NCBI RefSeq assembly: GCF_014699035.1
Contig: NZ_JACXAA010000004.1
Span: 372,001-436,000, forward strand
Reading direction: 5' to 3'
DNA: 64,000 bases
Source: Spirosoma validum
GTDB taxonomy: Bacteria; Bacteroidota; Bacteroidia; Cytophagales; Spirosomataceae
Part shown: positions 1,406 to 51,309 of the stretch, piece after piece
Position numbering within the stretch: the stretch's first letter is position 1
How the letters are laid out: each line of letters opens with the position of its first letter
Program-made: the position numbers and the translations under genes
The notes under the pieces: generated by a model
The model's database searches: none
Told to the model about the DNA's origin: nothing
Seen by the model: the letters and a program-made list of their open reading frames with translations, nothing else

Positions 1406-4400
1406 TTACATATTTCGTCGGTACTGGCCACCGACGGCGTAAAGTGCGTTCGATAATTGACCCAGCGAACATACTTTGGTGGCCTCCATCAGGCTCTCAA
1501 AGATGTTTTCGTTGGCCAACGCGGTGGCTTTCAGGTTAGCAAGTGCTACGTCAGCTTCCGCGCGATGGGCATTCTGGAAGGCCTGGCACGCGTCAACCTG
1601 AAAGCGTTTTTCGTCGTCGGTTGATCGGATCAATTCGGCGGGAACGATGGTTGGCGAACCGGCCGGATCGAGAAACGTATTGACGCCAACGATGGGTAAA
1701 TCGCCATTATGTTTCAGCGTCTCGTAATACATCGACTCTTCCTGAATTTTGCTACGTTGATACATCCGTTCCATTGCGCCCAATACGCCCCCGCGCTCGT
1801 TAATGGCCAGAAATTCCTGATAAACAGCTTCTTCAACCAAATCGGTTAACTCTTCGACCACAAAAGCGCCTTGTAGTGGATTCTCGTTCTTAGTTAAGCC
1901 AAATTCTCGGTTGATGATCAGTTGAATAGCCATCGCCCGTCGGACCGACTCTTCCGTCGGTGTGGTAATGGCTTCGTCGTAGGCGTTGGTATGCAGTGAG
2001 TTGCAATTGTCGTAAATCGCTAGTAAAGCTTGCAGTGTCGTGCGAATGTCGTTGAATGCAATTTCCTGCGCGTGCAAACTCCGACCCGAAGTTTGAATGT
2101 GATATTTCAGTTTCTGTGAGCGTTCGTTCGCTTTGTATTTATGCTTCATCGCCTTCGCCCAGATTCGTCGGGCAACACGCCCCAGCACGGTATACTCCGG
2201 GTCCATGCCGTTCGAGAAAAAGAATGATAGGTTGGGGGCAAAGCCGTCTACGTTCAGACCTCGGCTGAGGTAATATTCCACGAACGTAAAGCCATTGGAA
2301 AGCGTGAACGCCAGTTGCGAAATTGGGTTGGCGCCCGCTTCAGCAATGTGATAGCCCGAGATTGAAACCGAATAAAAATTCTGAATCCGATTGTCGATGA
2401 AATAAGCCTGAATATCGCCCATCATTTTGAGCGCAAATTCCGTCGAGAAAATGCAGGTGTTCTGCGCCTGATCTTCCTTCAGAATATCAGCCTGTACCGT
2501 ACCGCGGACTTTGCGCAACGTATCCGCTTTGATCTGTTCATAAACCGCTTTGGGTACTACTTTATCGCCCGTCGTACCAAGTAGCAGTAGGCCCAGGCCG
2601 TCATTGCTATCGGGTAGGGGGCCGTTGTAGCGCGGGGCATGGGCCATGGAGCTTGGGGCGTAGGGAAGCGTAACATCGACATTCACCCCATGCTCCTTGC
2701 TCCCTGCACCTTGCTGGCGCAGCCATTTCTCACACTGCTGATCAATGGCTGCGTTCAGAAAAAAGCCGAGAAGCATGGGCGCGGGGCCATTAATGGTCAT
2801 GGAAACCGACGTAGCCGGGTCGCAAAGATCGAAGCCGGAGTAGAGTTTCTTGGCATCGTCGAGGGTACAAATGCTTACGCCTGAGTTACCGACTTTGCCG
2901 AAAATATCCGGTCGCAGGGCCGGGTCTTCGCCGTAAAGCGTAACCGAGTCGAATGCTGTCGAAAGTCGTTTGGCGGGCAATCCTTTCGATACGTAGTGAA
3001 ACCGGCGATTGGTCCGTTCTGGGCCACCTTCGCCAGCAAACATGCGCGTGGGATCTTCACCTTCTCGTTTGAGCGGAAAGACACCCGCCGTGTAGGGAAA
3101 CTCGCCCGGTACGTTTTCGGTGAGCAACCAGCGCAGAATGTCGCCCCAGTCGTGGTATTTTGGCAGGCTAACCTTCGGAATTTTCAGATTCGACAGCGTT
3201 TCAGAATACAGCGGTTGTCGGATGATCTTGTCCCGAACTTTAAATTCATAAAATTCCGCAACGTAACGTTTTTGGATGTCGGGCCACTGTTCCAGCCAGG
3301 TTCGGCATTCGTTGGAAAGCCGGGATTCCAGGTCGGCCTGTAATTTTTGCAACTCTTCTTTCGCTGACTCACTCGTCACGATCTTCAGGACTCCGTCAAG
3401 CTGATACAGCTGCCTTGCCAGAGTAGTTTGTTCGGTTACGAACGTAGCATAACGGCGGCTTTCATCCACAATCTCAGCCAGATAACGGACTCGGTCAGAA
3501 GGGATAATGGCGTGGGGCAGAGGGCGTGGGGCTGAGGGCAAAGCAGCATCAACGTTTTCCCTTCGCTCTAACCCCTCTGCCACAGGCCCCATGCCCACTA
3601 ACCTCATTATCTGATCAAACAGCGCGTTCATCCCCGCATCATTGAACTGAGCGGCAATCGTTCCAACGATTGGCAATTCGTCATCTGCTACGTCCCAGCG
3701 GTTATGATTTCGTCGGTATTGTTTCCGGACATCGCGCAGGGCATCCAGCGAGCCGCGTTTGTCGAATTTGTTGATGGCTATTACGTCGGCGAAATCGAGC
3801 ATGTCGATTTTTTCCAACTGCGTAGCCGCACCGTATTCGGCGGTCATCACGTAGAGCGTTTTGTCGGCATGATCAGTAATTTCCGTATCCGACTGGCCAA
3901 TGCCTGATGTTTCGACAAGAATCAGATCAAACTGAGCGGCTTTGCAGATATCAATCGCATCCTGAACGTAACGGCTCAGTGCCAGATTCGACTGCCGTGT
4001 TGCCAGCGAACGCATGTACACCCGTGGCGCAGCGTCGGCTGGCGAATTGATGGCGTTCATCCGAATGCGGTCGCCGAGAAGTGCCCCGCCCGTTTTCCGT
4101 TTCGACGGATCAACGGAAATAATCGCCAGTGTTTTATCGGGAAATGTTCGCAGAAAACGTAGCACCAACTCATCAACCAGCGACGATTTCCCCGCGCCCC
4201 CGGTTCCGGTGATGCCGAGGACGGGAGCATAGTGCGTGGAGGTAGGAGCAGGGAGTTGACCAGGATATTTATCTGGATGGTTTTCGGCGGTGGTGATTAG
4301 CCGGGCGATTACGTCTGTATTTTTTGGAAATACATTTCCCGTATTCGCTGTTTTCAGTGGAGAGGCCGGGGGTAGGGTAAAATCGCACTGACGTAACAGA

Positions 4401-4834
4401 TCGTCAATCATGCCCTGCAAACCCATCGTCCGGCCGTCGTCGGGGGAGTAAATGCGCGTAATGCCGTACGCGTGCAGCTCTTCGATCTCTGAGGGCAGAA
4501 TCGTCCCACCGCCCCCGCCGAAGATGTTGATATGACCAGCTCCTCGTTCGTGAAGCAGGTCATACATGTACTTGAAAAACTCCAGATGCCCACCTTGATA
4601 GCTCGTTACGGCAATGCCCTGAACATCTTCCTGAATCGCACAATCTACAATTTCGGCTACGGATCGATTATGGCCCAGGTGAATCACTTCAGCCCCCGAT
4701 GCCTGCATTAGCCGACGCATCAGGTTAATGGCGGCATCGTGCCCATCGAACAACGAAGCCGCCGTAACGATGCGGATTTTATTTGTGAAGGCCAATGGCT
4801 GCGAAGAAACTGGTCTAGGTTGTTGAGCAATCAT
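1406..4834 (-). CDS. icmF: Fused isobutyryl-CoA mutase IcmF (B12 domain - G-protein chaperone - mutase)
   Basis: A 1142-residue adenosylcobalamin enzyme predicted to interconvert isobutyryl-CoA and n-butyryl-CoA. The order is: B12-binding domain (about residues 15-150, with [11 protein letters not shown] supplying the cobalt-ligand His32), a MeaB/ArgK-like G-protein chaperone domain (P-loop [12 protein letters not shown] near 207-220, then [20 protein letters not shown]), a linker, and the mutase domain (about 550-1142). The motif [20 protein letters not shown] marks an IcmF rather than a methylmalonyl-CoA mutase. The frame extends 13 codons upstream to a TTG at 4873, but a -7-like box overlaps that codon, so ATG 4834 is preferred. 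Two low-complexity segments (about residues 413-442 and 707-735) coincide with repeat-element DNA; see the repeats at 2632-2715 and 3509-3598. Related pivalyl-CoA or other acyl-CoA mutase specificity cannot be excluded. Confidence 0.93.
2632..2715. repeat. GGGGCATGG/CCCATGC-type repeat lying in frame inside icmF
   Basis: The plus strand has a G-rich half (GCGGGGCATGGGCCATGGAG, then CTTGGGGCGTAGGGAAG) followed by a C-rich half (CACCCCATGCTCCTTGCTCC, then CTGCACCTTGC). The pattern resembles the intergenic element at 49821-49898. It is translated in icmF as a Gly/Ser/Ala/Pro/His-rich loop, about residues 707-735, between QCEKWL and RYNGPLPD. The length keeps the frame. That it is an inserted repeat is inferred from resemblance. 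Confidence 0.6.
3509..3598. repeat. GGGGCAGAGGG-type inverted repeat lying in frame inside icmF
   Basis: The plus strand reads GGCGTGGGGCAGAGGG, then CGTGGGGCTGAGGGCAAAG, and after a short loop CCCCTCTGCCACAGGCCCCA TGCC. This is an imperfect inverted repeat closely matching the intergenic copy at 49821-49898. It encodes the Pro/Ala/Arg-rich linker of icmF (about residues 413-442, including [12 protein letters not shown]) between the G domain and the mutase domain. Confidence 0.65.
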
Positions 4835-4870
4835 AGGTTTAGGAATTCCGTTAGGTAAAGCCGGGTAGGT

Positions 4871-4903
4871 CAAAGTTACGAAGCAAAATGGAATGTAACT
4901 TTG
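4871..4903. promoter_or_regulatory. Divergent -7-like boxes between icmF and the TraB gene
   Basis: CAAAGTTA at 4871-4878 and TAACTTTG at 4896-4903 are exact inverted copies and match the Bacteroidota -7 consensus TAnnTTTG on each strand. The minus-strand box would start transcription near 4865, downstream of the TTG at 4873, so icmF translation most likely starts at ATG 4834. The plus-strand box would serve the gene at 4963. No clear -33 TTTG is seen at the expected distance for either, so this is a moderate call. The pair could also be a dimeric operator. Confidence 0.45.
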
Positions 4904-5844: not shown

Positions 5845-5850
5845 TTCGTT

Positions 5851-5945
5851 TTGGTATCGTGGACTTTAGTCCGCATAGCCGTAGGCTAAATTGTAGTTAT
5901 TGATGATCTGCCTACAGCCTTGCGGACTAAAGTCCGCGATACCAA
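5851..5945. repeat. Double-hairpin intergenic repeat, copy 2
   Basis: The arms 5853-5874 and 5922-5943 are inverted copies with one mismatch, flanked by TT and AA that extend the pairing. The inner palindromes are GGACTTTAGTCC (left) and GGACTAAAGTCC (right). The loop itself has a secondary stem (GCCGTAGGC and GCCTACAGC). It lies just after the TraB gene and may double as its transcription end. Confidence 0.85.
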
Positions 5946-6049
5946 ATTGAACACATAGTTAGACCCAGTGCTAAACACGCTTTTGTCAGGATATAATGTG
6001 GGAAACCTACAAACGGTTTCCATCACTCGAATAAATCACGGCAAAAGTT

Positions 6050-8982: not shown

Positions 8983-10110
8983 ATGATGACTTTGAAGCAC
9001 TTTTTTCGCTCTCTATCCTTACGCTTCCTCTTCGTAAGCCTTATCTGCTTTACAATCTTTTCCTGCACTGACCATGTCAATCCGCCCGAAGAGCCGGATG
9101 AGGATGAAACCGTTTACGTTGGTGGTAGTCTTGAAAGTAAACTTTACGCTTTCAACGCGGCAACAGGTACTAAAAAATGGGAATTTTTAGCGGGAGATTT
9201 AATTTTTTCAAGTCCGACAGTCGCCAGTGGGATCGTCTATATAGGAAGTGCTGATGGAAGACTATACGCTGTCGATGCAGTAACGGGCATAAAAAAATGG
9301 GAGTTTATAGCGGGCTACAACATTCTATCTTGTCCTACTGTAACTAATGGTTTGGTGTATTTTGGAAGTGATAAACTTTATGCTCTTGATGCGCTGACTG
9401 GTGTGAAAAAATGGGAGTTTGATCAATCAATCTACAAAACCTGGTTTAATCCAACGGTATCTAATGATATTGTCTATGCAATAGATTACCGTAAACTATA
9501 CGCCCTGAATGCAAAGACGGGAGGTAAAATATGGGAATTCACATCTGTCGAAGGGTTTGCGCCTAATCCCACCGTAGTCAACGGAGTAGTTTATGTAGGA
9601 GGGGATAAACTCTACGCACTTGATGCACAGACAGGGATTAAAAAATGGGAATTTATGATAGGGACTTTTTTTCAGGACAGAAATTTCATAGGTAATCCTA
9701 CAGTAGCTAATGGAATTGTTTATGTTACAACTCCCTTTAATTTATATGCACTTGATGCGTTGACTGGTACAAAAAAATGGGAGCTTGGGAGAGATGTTGG
9801 AAGAAGTTCAAGCCCCATTGTAGCGAATGGAATAGTTTATTCAGGTAATGGTTCTAAATTATATGCGGTTGATGCACTGACTGGCGCTGAAAAATGGAAA
9901 TTCACTGCAGGAGATTTTGTCAAGGACCCCACAATAGGGAATGGAGTCGTTTATGTAAGTAGTGAAGATCGAAAACTATATGCTATAGATGCGATAACAG
10001 GAGCAAAAAAATGGGAATCTATCACAGGTGATAAACTATACTCTTCTCCCTGTGTCGTAACTAAGAAAGGAGTTGTTTATCATCCCGGCCTTAGTGGCGA
10101 TCAGCAGTAA
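8983..10110 (+). CDS. PQQ-like (BamB-like) beta-propeller lipoprotein
   Basis: A 375-residue protein made of tandem propeller repeats with the refrain KLYALDALTGxKKWEF, recurring about every 38-42 residues some eight times. Variants include RLYAVDAVTGIKKWEF and KLYALNAKTGGKIWEF. This is the PQQ_2 / BamB-like repeat. The N-terminus is a lipoprotein signal (FVSLICFTIFSC, lipobox Cys near residue 28), followed by an acidic tether (EEPDEDE). There are two adjacent ATGs (8983, 8986) and the start cannot be decided between them. The gene is AT-richer than its neighbours, suggesting different ancestry or recent repeat expansion. It stands alone, so a BAM-complex role is not implied. No substrate can be named. 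Confidence 0.8.
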   Translation: MMTLKHFFRSLSLRFLFVSLICFTIFSCTDHVNPPEEPDEDETVYVGGSLESKLYAFNAATGTKKWEFLAGDLIFSSPTVASGIVYIGSADGRLYAVDAVTGIKKWEFIAGYNILSCPTVTNGLVYFGSDKLYALDALTGVKKWEFDQSIYKTWFNPTVSNDIVYAIDYRKLYALNAKTGGKIWEFTSVEGFAPNPTVVNGVVYVGGDKLYALDAQTGIKKWEFMIGTFFQDRNFIGNPTVANGIVYVTTPFNLYALDALTGTKKWELGRDVGRSSSPIVANGIVYSGNGSKLYAVDALTGAEKWKFTAGDFVKDPTIGNGVVYVSSEDRKLYAIDAITGAKKWESITGDKLYSSPCVVTKKGVVYHPGLSGDQQ

Positions 10111-10143: not shown

Positions 10144-10218
10144 GGTATCGCGGACTTCAGTCCGTTAAGGTAGTTAATTATCGGCTTCCACTCCTAACGG
10201 ACTAAAGTCCGTGGTACC
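10144..10218. repeat. Double-hairpin intergenic repeat, copy 3
   Basis: The arms 10144-10165 and 10197-10218 begin GGTATCGCGGACT and end AGTCCGTGGTACC. The inner palindromes are GGACTTCAGTCC (left) and GGACTAAAGTCC (right). It sits between two convergent genes (the propeller lipoprotein and the alpha-galactosidase) and ends three bases before the stop codon of the latter. Confidence 0.85.
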
Positions 10219-10220
10219 TT

Positions 10221-12413
10221 TTATTTTACCTCACTCACTTCCAGTACCACACTCTCCCGCCGAGAACTTACCTGGGGGTTAAAACCAATTGTCATGAGGT
10301 AATTGCCGGAGTACGTTGCGGTTGATGGGTTAACTGCCGACTTCGTGCCGGGATAGACGTTCAACTCCTGAATTTTATAGGTCTTGTCGGGGTTGAGTCC
10401 TTTCAGTTTGATCGGCGCTACGCTGCCTGCTTTGTACCGGTTTTTGACCAGATACGTAAACCAAACGGCCCGGTCCTGCGCTTCGTTGACGTACAGGAGT
10501 GACGCTACGTCGCTGGTGTAGGGTGAGGCTAACCGGAACTGGTCGCCCTGCCAGATGATGGGTTTGATTCGGTCGTAAGTTTTCAGGGCTTCCTGACTGA
10601 ATTGCAGTTCAGGTTCGGTGAGTTTGCTGACGACGATATCGTACCCGATTTTACCCATCATCGCTACGTCGGTGCGGAACTTGATCGGTTGTTTGCCCCA
10701 GTCCGTTACGTGGTTGCAACTCGCGATAGCCGGGAAGAAGTACGAATAATTCCACTGAATAAATACCCGCTCCAGTCCGTCGGTGTTATCGCTGGGCCAG
10801 TATTCGGTAAAGTAACGTAGCGCGCCGTAATCCACGCGGCCACCACCCCCCGAACAGAGCATCATCGGCAGGGTAGGGTACTTCGCCCGAATGCGCTCGA
10901 CTACTTTGTACAGCCCCTGAACATAATCGACGTAGAGGTTCGATTGATTTTGGCTGGTAGACGAGTAAGCGTTGTAAATCACCGCGTTGCAATCCCACTT
11001 AATATAGCTTAGCGTCGGATTTTTGGTCATGATGCCATTCACGACTTCATAGACAAAATCCTGCACTTTCGGGTTCGTCAGATCGAGCACCAACTGATTC
11101 CGGAAGTAATATTCCTGGCGATTCGGCAGCTTAATGACCCAGTCCGGATGTTTTTCGTACAGCTCACTTATCGGGCTAACCATCTCCGGTTCCAGCCAGA
11201 TGCCGAATTTGATACCCGAACTTTCCGCTTCTTTTACCAGGTATCCCAGGCCATGAGGTAGTTTTTTGGCGTTCTCCTGCCAGTCACCCAAACTCGTGTG
11301 GTCGTCGTTACGGGGATACTTGTTACCGAACCAGCCGTCATCCAGAAGGAACAAATCGACGCCTAGTTTTTTGCCGTCTTTGATAAGCGTTGAGAGCTTT
11401 TCCTCGTTGAAATCGAAATACGTCGCTTCCCAGTTGTTGAGCAGCGTCAAGCGGTTGCCCTGTCCCTGCGGAATACGGTGTTTGCGTGCCCAGCGATGCA
11501 GGCTTCGGCTGGCCACACCCGTTCCCTGTTGCGAATACGTGAACAGAAAGGCGGGCGTGGTAAACTCCTGATTGGGCGCTAACATATAGGCCGATGCGTA
11601 TGGGTTAATGCCCGGAATAATCCGTAGGTTATGCAGTGGATCGACTTCAAACGCCAGCTGGTAATTTCCCGACCAGGCCAGCGTACCGGCAATTACCTCG
11701 CCCCGATCTTCGTCGGCAGGTTGGTTGAGCGACACCAGAAATGACGGTGGCTGGAACAAGTCGGCGCGCGTACCCAGCTTTGTGTCCAGTACTTTAATCC
11801 CTTCGGTAAGCTGGATCTCCGACGGATTCATTTCATTGGCCCAGTCGCCGTGGAAATGCGTCAGGTAGTATTTTTCGGCGGGAATATAGAGGTTCGCCGA
11901 CGCATATTTCTGCATGGTTATCGGCTTTTTCTCCGCATGGCGAATCGTGGCCCACTGCTCAATAACGTCTTCTTTCTGATACGCTTTGTAATACAGCGTT
12001 ACGTCAAATGGATACTGTGGGTCTTTCAGGTACACTTTCGTTAGCACAATGCCATCGCCTGCGGGTTGGGTTTCGTGCCGAACGTAGTGAAGGTCGAGCG
12101 AAGGATTGCCGTCGGCATGGGTCACCTGAATGGCGGGTTCCAGTAAATTTCGGCTACCAGCGGGCGTATAGACTGAATTATAAATGCCGGTATAATCCTC
12201 GCCCCGCTTGCCGTTTTGAGGAATGGCTCCGTACTCAGCCGTGTTACGTAGTTTAGCTCCCAGATGCACCAGCGTCGGTATCTGCTCTTTATCGACCCGG
12301 ATCACCAGGGCGGTCTGCTGGGTTTCAATCACAATGTGGGTATCACCGGGAGCGGCTTTGGTGGGTAAAACCATCAGTAAAAAAAGCGATAGCGCCAGAA
12401 AAGATTGTTTCAT
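10221..12413 (-). CDS. Alpha-galactosidase, glycoside hydrolase family 36
   Basis: A 730-residue secreted GH36 enzyme that would release terminal alpha-1,6-galactose from galactomannan side chains or raffinose-type sugars. The signal peptide is SFLALSLFLLMVLPTKA. The N-terminal beta-sandwich covers about 25-320. The TIM barrel carries LFLLDDGWFG (residues 355-363), GIWLEPEM, the nucleophile Asp474 in SYIKWDCN, CSGGGGRVDYG (520-530) and the acid/base Asp542 in EYWPSDNTD. A C-terminal beta-domain follows. The length is normal for the family. The start is ATG at 12413. It is 33 nt downstream of the isochorismatase-family gene on the same strand. It may serve the GH26 mannanase locus 20 kb away, but that link is only functional inference. 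Confidence 0.94.
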   Translation of the reverse strand: MKQSFLALSLFLLMVLPTKAAPGDTHIVIETQQTALVIRVDKEQIPTLVHLGAKLRNTAEYGAIPQNGKRGEDYTGIYNSVYTPAGSRNLLEPAIQVTHADGNPSLDLHYVRHETQPAGDGIVLTKVYLKDPQYPFDVTLYYKAYQKEDVIEQWATIRHAEKKPITMQKYASANLYIPAEKYYLTHFHGDWANEMNPSEIQLTEGIKVLDTKLGTRADLFQPPSFLVSLNQPADEDRGEVIAGTLAWSGNYQLAFEVDPLHNLRIIPGINPYASAYMLAPNQEFTTPAFLFTYSQQGTGVASRSLHRWARKHRIPQGQGNRLTLLNNWEATYFDFNEEKLSTLIKDGKKLGVDLFLLDDGWFGNKYPRNDDHTSLGDWQENAKKLPHGLGYLVKEAESSGIKFGIWLEPEMVSPISELYEKHPDWVIKLPNRQEYYFRNQLVLDLTNPKVQDFVYEVVNGIMTKNPTLSYIKWDCNAVIYNAYSSTSQNQSNLYVDYVQGLYKVVERIRAKYPTLPMMLCSGGGGRVDYGALRYFTEYWPSDNTDGLERVFIQWNYSYFFPAIASCNHVTDWGKQPIKFRTDVAMMGKIGYDIVVSKLTEPELQFSQEALKTYDRIKPIIWQGDQFRLASPYTSDVASLLYVNEAQDRAVWFTYLVKNRYKAGSVAPIKLKGLNPDKTYKIQELNVYPGTKSAVNPSTATYSGNYLMTIGFNPQVSSRRESVVLEVSEVK

Positions 12414-20766: not shown

Positions 20767-20829
20767 GGTACCACGGGCTTTAGCCCGTATCGGATGCCAG
20801 GCGCTGTACGGACTAAAGTCCGTGGTACC
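20767..20829. repeat. Double-hairpin intergenic repeat, copy 4
   Basis: The arms are 20767-20788 (GGTACCACGGGCTTTAGCCC, then GT) and 20808-20829 (ending AGTCCGTGGTACC). Compared with each other the arms differ at two positions, but inside each arm the change is compensated: GGGC/GCCC on the left, GGAC/GTCC on the right. It lies between the SusD gene and the FAD oxidoreductase gene. Confidence 0.85.
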
Positions 20830-20867
20830 TATCGGATCATTTAGTTCGCCTTAACTTTTATTCACGC

Positions 20868-49161: not shown

Positions 49162-49821
49162 ATGGAAACGCTCGAAAAAATTCGTAAAGCGTACACGGAG
49201 TACGTACTGGAAAACGGGAAACAACCAACCTCTGTTTTTCAGTTTGCAAAGAAACTGAAAATTGCCGAAGCTGACTTTTACAAAGAATACACGTCGTTCG
49301 ATGCCATCGAGGCCGACATCTGGTTGACCTTTTTTACCGAAGCAAAAACCACTGTCGAAGCCGATGAAACCGCTCAATCATATTCAGTTCGGGAAAAATT
49401 GCTTGCCTTTTATTACACTTGGATTGAGCTGTTAAAAGGACAGCGCAGCTTTGCTGTATACAGCTATGGTCGATTGCGTGAAGCCAGCAAAGGCCAGGGA
49501 GCAAGGGGCATGGGGCGTCAGCAGTCGCAGGTATTCAAGCCATTCAAAGAAGCGTTTTACGACTATGCCCGCGATCTGCTGGCGGAAGGCCGTGAAAGCA
49601 AAGAAGTCGAGCCTCGCCCGTTTATCACGGATCGCTATCCAGATGCACTGTGGGGGCAAACGCTCTATCTGCTCGATTTCTGGATACGTGACGTGAGCAA
49701 AAACTTCGAGAAAACCGACACTGCCATCGAAAAAGCCGTCAATACCTCCTTCGATCTCATTGGTCGATCGCCTTTAGACACGCTATTCGACTTCGCCAAG
49801 TTTATGTACCAAAATAAATAG
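49162..49821 (+). CDS. TetR-like protein
   Basis: A 219-residue helical protein resembling TetR-family regulators with a TetR_C-type ligand domain. The N-terminal helices (LEKIRKAYTEYVLENGKQPT, then VFQFAKKLKIAEADFYKEYT with a following SFDAIEADIW) follow the TetR order, but the HTH is weak. DNA binding is therefore inferred. A low-complexity insertion ASKGQGARGMGRQQSQ (about 112-127) corresponds to GGGGCATGGGGC-type repeat DNA at 49497-49517. It precedes the ABC1 kinase gene and in similar Bacteroidota pairs is annotated with it; the two may work together. Confidence 0.72.
   Translation: METLEKIRKAYTEYVLENGKQPTSVFQFAKKLKIAEADFYKEYTSFDAIEADIWLTFFTEAKTTVEADETAQSYSVREKLLAFYYTWIELLKGQRSFAVYSYGRLREASKGQGARGMGRQQSQVFKPFKEAFYDYARDLLAEGRESKEVEPRPFITDRYPDALWGQTLYLLDFWIRDVSKNFEKTDTAIEKAVNTSFDLIGRSPLDTLFDFAKFMYQNK
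49497..49517. repeat. Short GGGGCATGGGGC-type repeat inside the TetR-like gene
   Basis: GGGAGCAAGGGGCATGGGGC resembles one half of the larger repeat elements at 2632-2715, 3509-3598 and 49821-49898. It encodes Gly/Ala/Arg-rich residues in an otherwise helical protein. Confidence 0.45.
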
Positions 49822-49898
49822 CATGGGGCAGAGGGGTAAGGGCAAAGGGTGTGCGTTAAGTGCCCCATTTCCTCTGCCCCGTGCCCCGTGCCCGCTGC
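49821..49898. repeat. Intergenic GGGGCAGAGGGG-type inverted repeat
   Basis: It fills the gap between the TetR-like and ABC1 kinase genes. The left half is GCATGGGGCAGAGGGGTAAG then GGCAAAGGG. The right half is CCTCTGCCCCGTGCCCCGTG then CCCGC. The halves are imperfect inverted copies, and the left half closely follows the icmF-internal element at 3509 (GTGGGGCAGAGGG, GAGGGCAAAG). Confidence 0.75.
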
Positions 49899-49899
49899 T

Positions 49900-51225
49900 A
49901 TGAAAACCCAAACATCCGTTCCAACGACCAAAGTTGCCCGTGCCAGTCAGTTTGTAAAGGCTGGCGTGAAAGTCGGTGGGAATTATATCAAGCATTACAG
50001 CAAGAAGCTGATTGATCCCAGCTTGTCGAAAGAGGAGTTGCACAAAGACAATGCGGCTGACATCTACGACGCGTTGAGTGAACTGAAAGGTTCGGCGCTG
50101 AAAATGGCGCAGATGCTGAGTATGGATCGGGGGCTACTGCCGGTTGCGTACTCCGATAAATTCGCCATGGCACAGTATTCAGCACCGCCTTTGTCGGGGC
50201 CGCTGGTTGTCAAAACATTCAAGACCTACTTCGGAAAATCACCGGCGCAACTGTTCGATAGATTCGATATCGAAGCGGTCAACGCGGCCAGCATCGGTCA
50301 GGTACACCAGGCCTGGAAAGATGGTAAAAAACTAGCGGTGAAGGTGCAGTATCCGGGCGTAGCTGATGCTGTTAGCTCCGATCTGAAAATTGCCAAACCC
50401 CTGGCGGTGCGGTTGTTGAGTCTGAACGAACGCGACATTGACCGGTACATGGGCGAGGTTGAATCGAAATTGCTGGAGGAGACCGACTACGAGCTGGAAC
50501 TGAAACGATCCATCGAAATTTCACAGGCCTGTGCCGATATTCCCGATCTGGTGTTTCCGAAATACTATCCTGAGTTTTCCTCGAAGCGAATCCTGACGAT
50601 GGACTGGCTGGATGGTTTACACCTGAAAGAATTTCTTCGAACAAATCCGTCGCAGGAAGTACGCGACCGTATCGGCCAGGCTCTCTGGGATTTTTATGAT
50701 TTTCAGATCCATACGCTACGTCAGGTACACGCTGATCCGCATCCGGGTAATTTCCTGATGCGGGCCGATGGGACAATGGGTGTCATCGACTTCGGTTGTG
50801 TAAAAGTCATTCCTGATTTTTATTACGATAATTACTTCCGGCTGATTAATCCCGATACGCTCGAAGATGCCGCATTAACGGAAGAAGTGTTTAATAATCT
50901 GGAGTTTTTGACCCCGGAAGATTCGCCTAAAGACCGTCAGTTTTTCTCTGATCTGTTCAAGGAAATGACCCTGATGCTGGCAGAACCCTTCGCTGTGGAA
51001 GAATTCGATTTTGGCGATGATACGTACTTCAATAAAGTCTATGCGTTTGCCGAAGGTCTGGCTAACGTATCAGAACTGAAAAATTCGAAAGTGGCGCGCG
51101 GATCGCAGGATGGTTTGTACGTTAATCGGACGTATTACGGTCTCTACGCCATGCTGAATGAACTAAAAGCCAAAGTAACGACGACAAGGCCCGAGTGGCT
51201 TCGCTCGAAGAAGCTGGTTGTTTAA
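49900..51225 (+). CDS. ABC1/AarF/UbiB-family atypical kinase
   Basis: A 441-residue UbiB-like atypical kinase. Motifs in order are: the KxGQ-like LKGSALKMAQMLSMDRG, where Gly is replaced by Ala (KMAQ); the Ala-rich loop AVNAASIGQVHQA; the ATP lysine KLAVKVQYPGV; EETDYELELKRS; MDWLDGLHLKEFL; the catalytic loop HADPHPGNFLM; and metal-binding VIDFGCVKV. Members support quinone biosynthesis or lipid metabolism, and the direct target is not known. The frame continues upstream to a GTG at 49849, but that would translate the repeat at 49821-49898, so ATG 49900 is preferred. Confidence 0.9.
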   Translation: MKTQTSVPTTKVARASQFVKAGVKVGGNYIKHYSKKLIDPSLSKEELHKDNAADIYDALSELKGSALKMAQMLSMDRGLLPVAYSDKFAMAQYSAPPLSGPLVVKTFKTYFGKSPAQLFDRFDIEAVNAASIGQVHQAWKDGKKLAVKVQYPGVADAVSSDLKIAKPLAVRLLSLNERDIDRYMGEVESKLLEETDYELELKRSIEISQACADIPDLVFPKYYPEFSSKRILTMDWLDGLHLKEFLRTNPSQEVRDRIGQALWDFYDFQIHTLRQVHADPHPGNFLMRADGTMGVIDFGCVKVIPDFYYDNYFRLINPDTLEDAALTEEVFNNLEFLTPEDSPKDRQFFSDLFKEMTLMLAEPFAVEEFDFGDDTYFNKVYAFAEGLANVSELKNSKVARGSQDGLYVNRTYYGLYAMLNELKAKVTTTRPEWLRSKKLVV

Positions 51226-51233
51226 GAAGGTCT

Positions 51234-51305
51234 TTAACCACAGAGCCACGGAGAACACAGAGAATTTGCTAAAAAACTCTGTGTTCTCCGTGGCTCTGTG
51301 GTTAA
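51234..51305. repeat. Perfect 29-nt inverted repeat (CCACAGAG/CTCTGTGG type)
   Basis: The arms 51234-51262 (TTAACCACAGAGCCACGGAG, then AACACAGAG) and 51277-51305 are perfectly complementary, with a 14-nt AT-rich loop. It lies between the convergent kinase and pirin genes, so it may work as a bidirectional terminator. Its sequence type, based on CCACAGAG, is a repeat I recall from other Bacteroidota and diverse environmental genomes. Confidence 0.85.
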
Positions 51306-51309
51306 ATTC

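Follow-up and report, generated by a model that had tools for sequence, protein, structure and literature searches.

In the 64,000-nucleotide stretch of the Spirosoma validum genome analysed here (the window; G000:C34:372001-436000, in a genome of 8.22 Mb and 39 contigs), G-rich DNA followed by C-rich DNA lies twice in frame in icmF, the gene for a fused isobutyryl-CoA mutase, and again between a TetR-like gene and an ABC1-type kinase gene. On balance, we lean toward the view that these segments are members of a population of short hairpins built of degenerate GGGNNNN words, which turn over in place, whose arms are kept matched by template switching, and which are sometimes captured in frame. 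The phenomenon itself is real, exceeds chance, extends through the genus, and has close counterparts among the heptameric repeats and the coding palindromes already known; the genome-specific rewriting of hairpins in place is its new part and the least proven. The features concerned are as follows.

1406..4873, minus strand: icmF, fused isobutyryl-CoA mutase of 1155 amino acids (open reading frame [ORF], Pfam matches and alignment to 4xc6).
3509..3598, unstranded: S1, in-frame hairpin segment of icmF with the words GGGGCAGA, GGGCGT and GGGGCTGA.
2632..2715, unstranded: S2, in-frame hairpin segment of icmF with the words GGGGCAT, GGAGCTT and AGGGAGC.
49162..49821, plus strand: TetR-like gene (Pfam TetR_C_23).
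49483..49515, plus strand: one-armed tract of G-rich words, in frame in the TetR-like gene.
49819..49899, unstranded: intergenic hairpin, occupying the entire space that separates the TetR-like gene from the ABC1 gene.
49900..51225, plus strand: ABC1-type kinase gene (Pfam).
G000:C22:171525-175043, outside the window: FG-GAP/UnbV gene, a frame of 1173 amino acids with two in-frame hairpin sites.

An earlier note on this DNA had described one palindromic repeat, shared by both icmF segments, the intergenic element and a piece of the TetR-like gene. The G-rich then C-rich composition of S1 and S2 was borne out, in frame in the icmF ORF, and both are palindromic against codon shuffling (0 of 100 shuffles scored as high for S1, and 1 of 100 for S2). 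The match to the intergenic element held for S1 (score 18.5, equalled by 0 of 500 codon shuffles and 0 of 3160 window segments) but not for S2 (score 9.5, equalled by 33 of 500 and 50 of 3160, respectively). S2 instead has words in common with the TetR piece (score 20.0). This piece does exist, being 33 nt long and 88% complementary to icmF 2686-2718, but no C-rich partner adjoins it; its score against the intergenic element was 12.0, equalled by 4 of 500 shuffles, and it falls in a loop that varies among species. The earlier note had merged two word sets, namely GGGGCAGA/GGGCAT in S1 and the intergenic element, and a GGAGCA type in S2 and the TetR piece. Its observation mostly holds and is partly confirmed, and its interpretation as a dispersed inserting element is partly supported.

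Further copies are present in the genome. A search with the intergenic element gave 63 matches at E ≤ 10, or about 40 separate places by a hand count in which the weakest may be chance; its best match in its own genome, besides itself, was only 30 nt. A strict pattern, in which three GGG tracts and then three CCC tracts recur at a period of seven, had 58 overlapping matches per strand, covering at least 26 distinct places among the matches listed, versus none for the C-first control; the pattern GGGGCANRGGGGCA, with the wrong spacing, had no matches. In 1.656 Mb, a three-tract G cluster followed by a C cluster was found 22 times, versus 0 in the reversed order and 0–2 in five shuffles, while two tracts per arm gave a small excess (87 G-first and 50 C-first; shuffles 55–80 and 67–82). 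Genome-wide, a two-tract pattern was found 133 times G-first and seven times C-first. Because a strict, ungapped inverted-repeat scan recovered one heptad element only in 456 kb, detection was based on tracts. A looser rule yielded 32 elements, of which 16 have a period of seven (heptads), 14 a period of nine (nonamers; GGGAGGAGA, GGGACGAAA) and two are unclassified. In a copy, a loop separates the leading G-rich arm from the C-rich one; the units include GGGCATA, GGGGTAA, GGGCAGA and GGGCAAA, and several copies carry four GGG tracts in a single arm. A single fixed repeat unit everywhere was rejected: copies align along one arm at best, and have words in common but not their order.

The copies differ from one another, while the two arms of each copy match. 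Among the 16 heptad elements, the mean score of an arm against its own partner was 20.7, versus 11.0 against the arms of other copies, and the own arm was the single best in 10; the 14 nonamers gave 23.1 versus 15.6, with the own arm best in five. None of 2000 permutations reached either result. These 30 elements had been selected for palindromy. For 22 elements picked by their tracts alone, the mean score was 15.8 for the own arm and 8.8 for arms of other copies, which none of 5000 permutations reached, and the own arm was best in eight.

In sister species, the arms of hairpins of all classes also change together. Two pairs, with identities of 91.6% over 77 kb and 92.8% over 135 kb, were compared at the 40 of 60 inverted repeats of a pair's first member that could be mapped, all in species other than the present one. 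Of 866 aligned arm pairs, 727 were unchanged; the 139 changed pairs comprised 47 compensated, 24 G-T, 65 broken and three doubly changed but unpaired. Double changes were complementary in 47 of 50 cases (p ~ 2 × 10^-19 versus one third), and by our own arithmetic the rate of change per site would yield about four compensated pairs, versus the 47 observed. In G004, all four changes at 169249 were compensated and, among the matches listed, a block at 118660 had been replaced in both arms. The TetR-ABC1 hairpins of G010 and G028 have a common loop, while in both arms several words that read GGG in one genome have GAG or GTG in its counterpart.

With respect to genes, ORFs were called mechanically over a fifth of the genome (1156 ORFs), and their borders are therefore approximate. 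The element starts within -14 to +15 nt of an ORF stop in 13 of 16 heptads, 12 of 14 nonamers and one of the two unclassified elements, compared with 7.2% for random intergenic placement. The stop next to heptad elements is TAG in 9 of 14 cases, versus 263 of 1156 overall (Fisher p = 0.001). Most hairpins, then, begin at a stop codon and can supply that codon, as in the intergenic hairpin at 49819-49899, whose first three letters are the TAG stop of the TetR-like gene. An ORF runs through five of 27 distinct elements with flanks, and none through the other 22; three of these five lie in genes with relatives, namely icmF (S1) and the two sites of the FG-GAP/UnbV frame. In a run of ORFs at 403-445 kb of contig C11, spaced by about 2.5 kb, many stops are followed by a nonamer or heptad hairpin, each differing from the others, and this run offers a natural series for the study of hairpin divergence.

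Compensated changes and stop anchoring are also what one would expect of functional RNA hairpins, either terminators or stabilisers of mRNA 3' ends, which would be under selection, with compensatory mutations preserving the stem and the choice of words being incidental. Inverted repeats of whatever class with a score ≥14 lie ≤150 nt from the 3' end in 259 of the 1156 ORFs versus 87 on the 5' side, and passages of a survey describe a peak of inverted repeats 3' of bacterial stop codons (PMC13155455). We nevertheless regard this explanation as possible rather than probable. It does not account for the copies within genes, nor for the sharing of words and the strict-pattern G-first rule in this genome; a T run (at least six T in the 12 nt past the stem) follows only 24 of 109 stop-anchored hairpins; and the arms diverge about as fast as the flanks (sister-pair identity 0.878 for arms, 0.893 for flanks and 0.821 for loops).

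The TetR-ABC1 junction was read in 34 of the 36 genomes of the genus set (30 at first, including the present one, and four later; that of G015 was read when the genome-wide counts were already known). Palindromy exceeded all of 60 shuffles in 21 of the first 30. GGG heptads with the stop TAG occupy the junction in the present genome, G007, G015 and G017. GA words are found mostly with a TGA stop (TGA in 22 of 34 junctions), TAATG words with TAA in G023, and GGAGC words with TAG in G003. The four heptad junctions belong to the four genomes with the largest two-tract excess over the control (162 in G015, 126 in the present genome, 86 in G017 and 46 in G007; the next has 11). On an icmF tree built without the loops by a quick method, this trait requires four gains or losses, and shuffled labels require 3.9, so the heptad junction does not follow descent. 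The vocabulary of the junction tracks the genome-wide word excess. In the family, the strict heptad pattern is found in 20 of 150 genomes and 9 of 36 genera, with up to 109 matches, and its C-first control is non-zero in eight of the 150, with five matches at most. A GA-word hairpin pattern is present in all 36 genus genomes (2–181 matches each; control 0 in all). As a further and more speculative extension, which we put forward tentatively, genomes of the genus may hold competing populations of hairpin words that overwrite hairpins at fixed sites, chiefly gene ends and now and then coding loops, each site following the current vocabulary over ancestry; such copying would make the hairpins of one genome more alike, with proteins edited as a by-product. 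In G001 and G073, several hairpin loops have the core GCTGACGC in common despite arms of different vocabularies.

In icmF, the product of which matches Pfam B12-binding, MeaB (MeaB-type GTPase) and MM_CoA_mutase, loop placement was based on the Pfam limits and the 4xc6 alignment; an AlphaFold model built from 10 sequences was too poor (mean pLDDT 39.5) and was not used. S1 directly follows the stretch matched by MeaB, whose last residue is 425, and S2 precedes the mutase stretch, which starts at residue 785. Relative to icmF, the 4xc6 chain is about four residues shorter at S1 and has nine residues versus 57 around S2. An icmF match was found in 35 of the 36 genus genomes, and 30 loci were taken, including that of the present genome (in G023, the match, L051, crosses one TAG). 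Both sites are hypervariable in these loci, carrying unrelated hairpins or none. Palindromes beyond codon shuffles (≤1 of 100) were found in 6 of the 30 loci at S1 and 11 of the 30 at S2, with GGG heptads in G015 at one extreme and C-first hairpins in G008 and G013 at the other. At each site, longer segments have higher palindrome scores (Spearman 0.77 over the 30 genomes), and repeat-free alleles are shorter, with minima of 22 (S1) and 18 (S2) amino acids. The 99th percentile of 600 control windows elsewhere in icmF was 9.5, exceeded by seven S1 and nine S2 segments. The sister pair G001 and G022, whose icmF genes are 93.1% identical without the loops, has a common S1 segment but two different significant S2 hairpins.

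The earlier note had read the two segments as insertions that add loops to the protein. In 80 further icmF loci (all 80 were used, and at least one of them, L247 of Spirosoma terrae, comes from a congener), S1 has a length of 27 amino acids in 64 and S2 of 31 in 61, versus 33 and 35 here, a net gain of six and four residues. These segments of similar length usually consist of non-repeat sequence, which is largely the outcome that the earlier note had named as refuting its reading, and clean insertion at the icmF sites was rejected. Since the wider relatives have sequence of comparable length there, the hairpin DNA mostly overwrote existing variable segments, replacing or refilling them, rather than adding two new loops. 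In the wider loci, the control percentile of 9.5 was exceeded by none of the 80 S1 segments and by two S2 segments, those of Mucilaginibacter L264 (78 amino acids, score 15.0) and Fibrisoma L246 (38 amino acids, score 10.0). Palindromic segments in the wider loci make S2 a recurrent site of coding palindromes. In Taibaiella L324, S2 (53 amino acids) contains a CTCTCCC/GGGAGAG hairpin visible by eye, which scored 8.0; the S2 hairpins of L264 and L324 are of yet another sequence.

The FG-GAP/UnbV gene presents a second case, in which orthology was assigned by best match only. Site 1 has 36 residues here, versus 11 in G023 and G002 and 19 in the nearest relative, G034. It has 40 residues in G003, 26 in G017, and 39 in G015, where it is coded by that genome's own heptad hairpin; G022 and G001 have 19 residues and a one-armed tract, decayed in G001. 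At site 2, the hairpin codes for 30 residues, whereas seven of eight congeners have 21–23 residues of other sequence and G034 has 32. The supposition that a dispersed family is tolerated in coding sequence is upheld by these four in-frame hairpin stretches in two genes, and the supposition that it adds loops to proteins applies to one of them, the lengthened site 1 of FG-GAP/UnbV, rather than to icmF.

Site 1, exceeding three congeners by 17–25 residues, is one argument for a mobile palindromic element of the miniature inverted-repeat transposable element (MITE), repetitive extragenic palindrome (REP) or Rickettsia palindromic element type, which would be moved by a transposase in trans, insert near stops or in frame, and then diverge. 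The patchy spread in the family, the non-adjacent position of the four heptad-junction genomes on the tree, the end TAGCA common to several copies, and four matches to PF01797 (Y1_Tnp) in this genome are consistent with it. This origin seems rather unlikely, however. The copies have words in common but no sequence running through all of them; they have diverged from one another and yet retain matched arms, the opposite of decaying insertions; and in icmF the segment mostly took the place of existing sequence without lengthening the protein. Furthermore, seven of the 36 genus genomes have no PF01797 match and still have 9–73 GA-word hairpin matches, and PF01797 counts show a weak correlation (Spearman 0.31 and 0.28; p = 0.07 and 0.10), so a Y1/RAYT transposase was rejected as a driver that must be present. 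Finally, composition or chance, whereby GGG and CCC codons would occur by coincidence in flexible Gly/Pro/Ala linkers, is very improbable: both icmF sites are variable linkers, S2 does not exceed the background against the intergenic element, and the top control window elsewhere in icmF scored 20.0, above both segments, but the codon shuffles, the recurrence of the words at about 40 places (22 of the 27 examined without an ORF through them) and the empty C-first control all speak against it.

Under the turnover of hairpin words in place that we favour, template switching in replication would recopy one arm from the other and so keep the arms complementary, which would explain the matched arms, the double changes made in one step and the mirrored blocks. 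Words would multiply through slippage and copying between loci, and old hairpins would be overwritten in place. At a gene end, a hairpin may do no harm, or may serve as the 3' end of the mRNA. Within a coding region, it would persist only if its words do not interrupt the frame and the protein offers a permissive loop, as icmF and FG-GAP/UnbV each do at two sites. Selection on the RNA hairpin may contribute at gene ends, though not in icmF. Template switching alone does not account for words that several loci have in common or for the way one vocabulary gives way to another at a site, a step that we infer.

Several observations weigh against this turnover. One-sided breaks make up 65 of the 139 changed arm pairs, and many hairpins therefore decay. 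The hairpins in the co-change comparison came from other species and represented all classes, with few heptads among them, and selection on RNA hairpins could also yield co-change. By eye, the S1 segment common to G001 and G022 has no clear mirrored changes. G-first polarity is not universal: C-first hairpins occur (1.2 Mb of C11 contain four with high scores), and the two-tract pattern is as frequent or more frequent C-first in many congeners, for example 46 G-first versus 105 C-first in G003. Nine of the 30 junctions, that of the heptad genome G017 among them, were no more palindromic than the best of 60 shuffles, and the junctions of G006 and G010 carry several G3/C3 tracts without a genome-wide excess. 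No copying event was caught among the genomes compared, and the route from one vocabulary to another is conjectural.

The window contains other repeats as well. A REP-like family distinct from the heptad hairpins lies at 1342-1407, 5845-5951, 10144-10235 and 20803-20846; its ends are GGTACC/GGTATC and its cores resemble CGGACTNNAGTCCG or CGGGTTNNAACCCG, and further members lie at gene ends in other parts of the genome. At 51233-51306, 3' of the ABC1 gene, there is a palindrome (CACAGAGCCACGGAGAACACAGAG) with 35-nt arms that are 94% complementary, and congeners carry other sequences at this place. Eight direct repeats spaced by 114–132 bases at 9138-10021 lie in a single ORF (8983-10110) for a repeat protein.

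These results connect three topics that are usually separate: heptameric G-rich repeats, gene-end hairpins and palindromes within proteins. If the two arms are rewritten as one, then in such genomes compensated changes would not by themselves be proof of functional RNA, for which they are usually taken. The process would also offer a route from non-coding DNA to variable protein loops, testable in culturable bacteria.

Among the best-ranked literature matches, we found no report of such elements in Spirosoma or Cytophagales. The heptanucleotide elements of Geobacter metallireducens (PMC2700814), as described in passages of that paper, include classes in which hepta- or octamers in tandem are depicted as a pair of strands on either side of a loop. 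They belong to another phylum, have consensus words, and were interpreted as regulatory RNA or IHF/HU sites; word order mirrored per copy, replacement between species and supply of the stop codon are not mentioned in those passages. The heptameric quadruplex repeats of Xanthomonas and Nostoc (GGGAATC and GGGGA(C/T)T; PMC4692102, in part) are tandem consensus units, whereas the present elements contain mixed words mirrored per copy, and their units (listed above) are not tandem GGGNATC or GGGGAYT. They also lack the fixed palindrome of 20–40 nt of REP or bacterial interspersed mosaic elements, both words and lengths being variable.

Rickettsia palindromic elements are likewise palindromic DNA found between genes and in frame in unrelated protein genes (PMC10969869, in part), as are the copies in icmF and FG-GAP/UnbV. 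The same passages describe them as families of about 150 bp with a conserved peptide, and passages of PMC6649704 state that they lose arm identity over time. The present elements are shorter, are without a family consensus or a sequence and peptide common to all copies (as the between-copy scores and the 30-nt best match indicate), and the arms of genus hairpins co-change. In the nematomorph mitochondrial genome, inverted repeats also lie in coding genes and their arms evolve in concert, for which template switching was proposed; according to the same passages (PMC6649704), those palindromes encode conserved protein regions, whereas here variable loops are filled from a dispersed word family. 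Template switching is established as creating and maintaining RNA hairpins (passages of PMC8794818; see also PMC6649704), and it is the same mechanism that we propose for the compensated changes made in one step; in those passages it is known for RNA genes, whereas in Spirosoma it would act on a dispersed family that also enters proteins.
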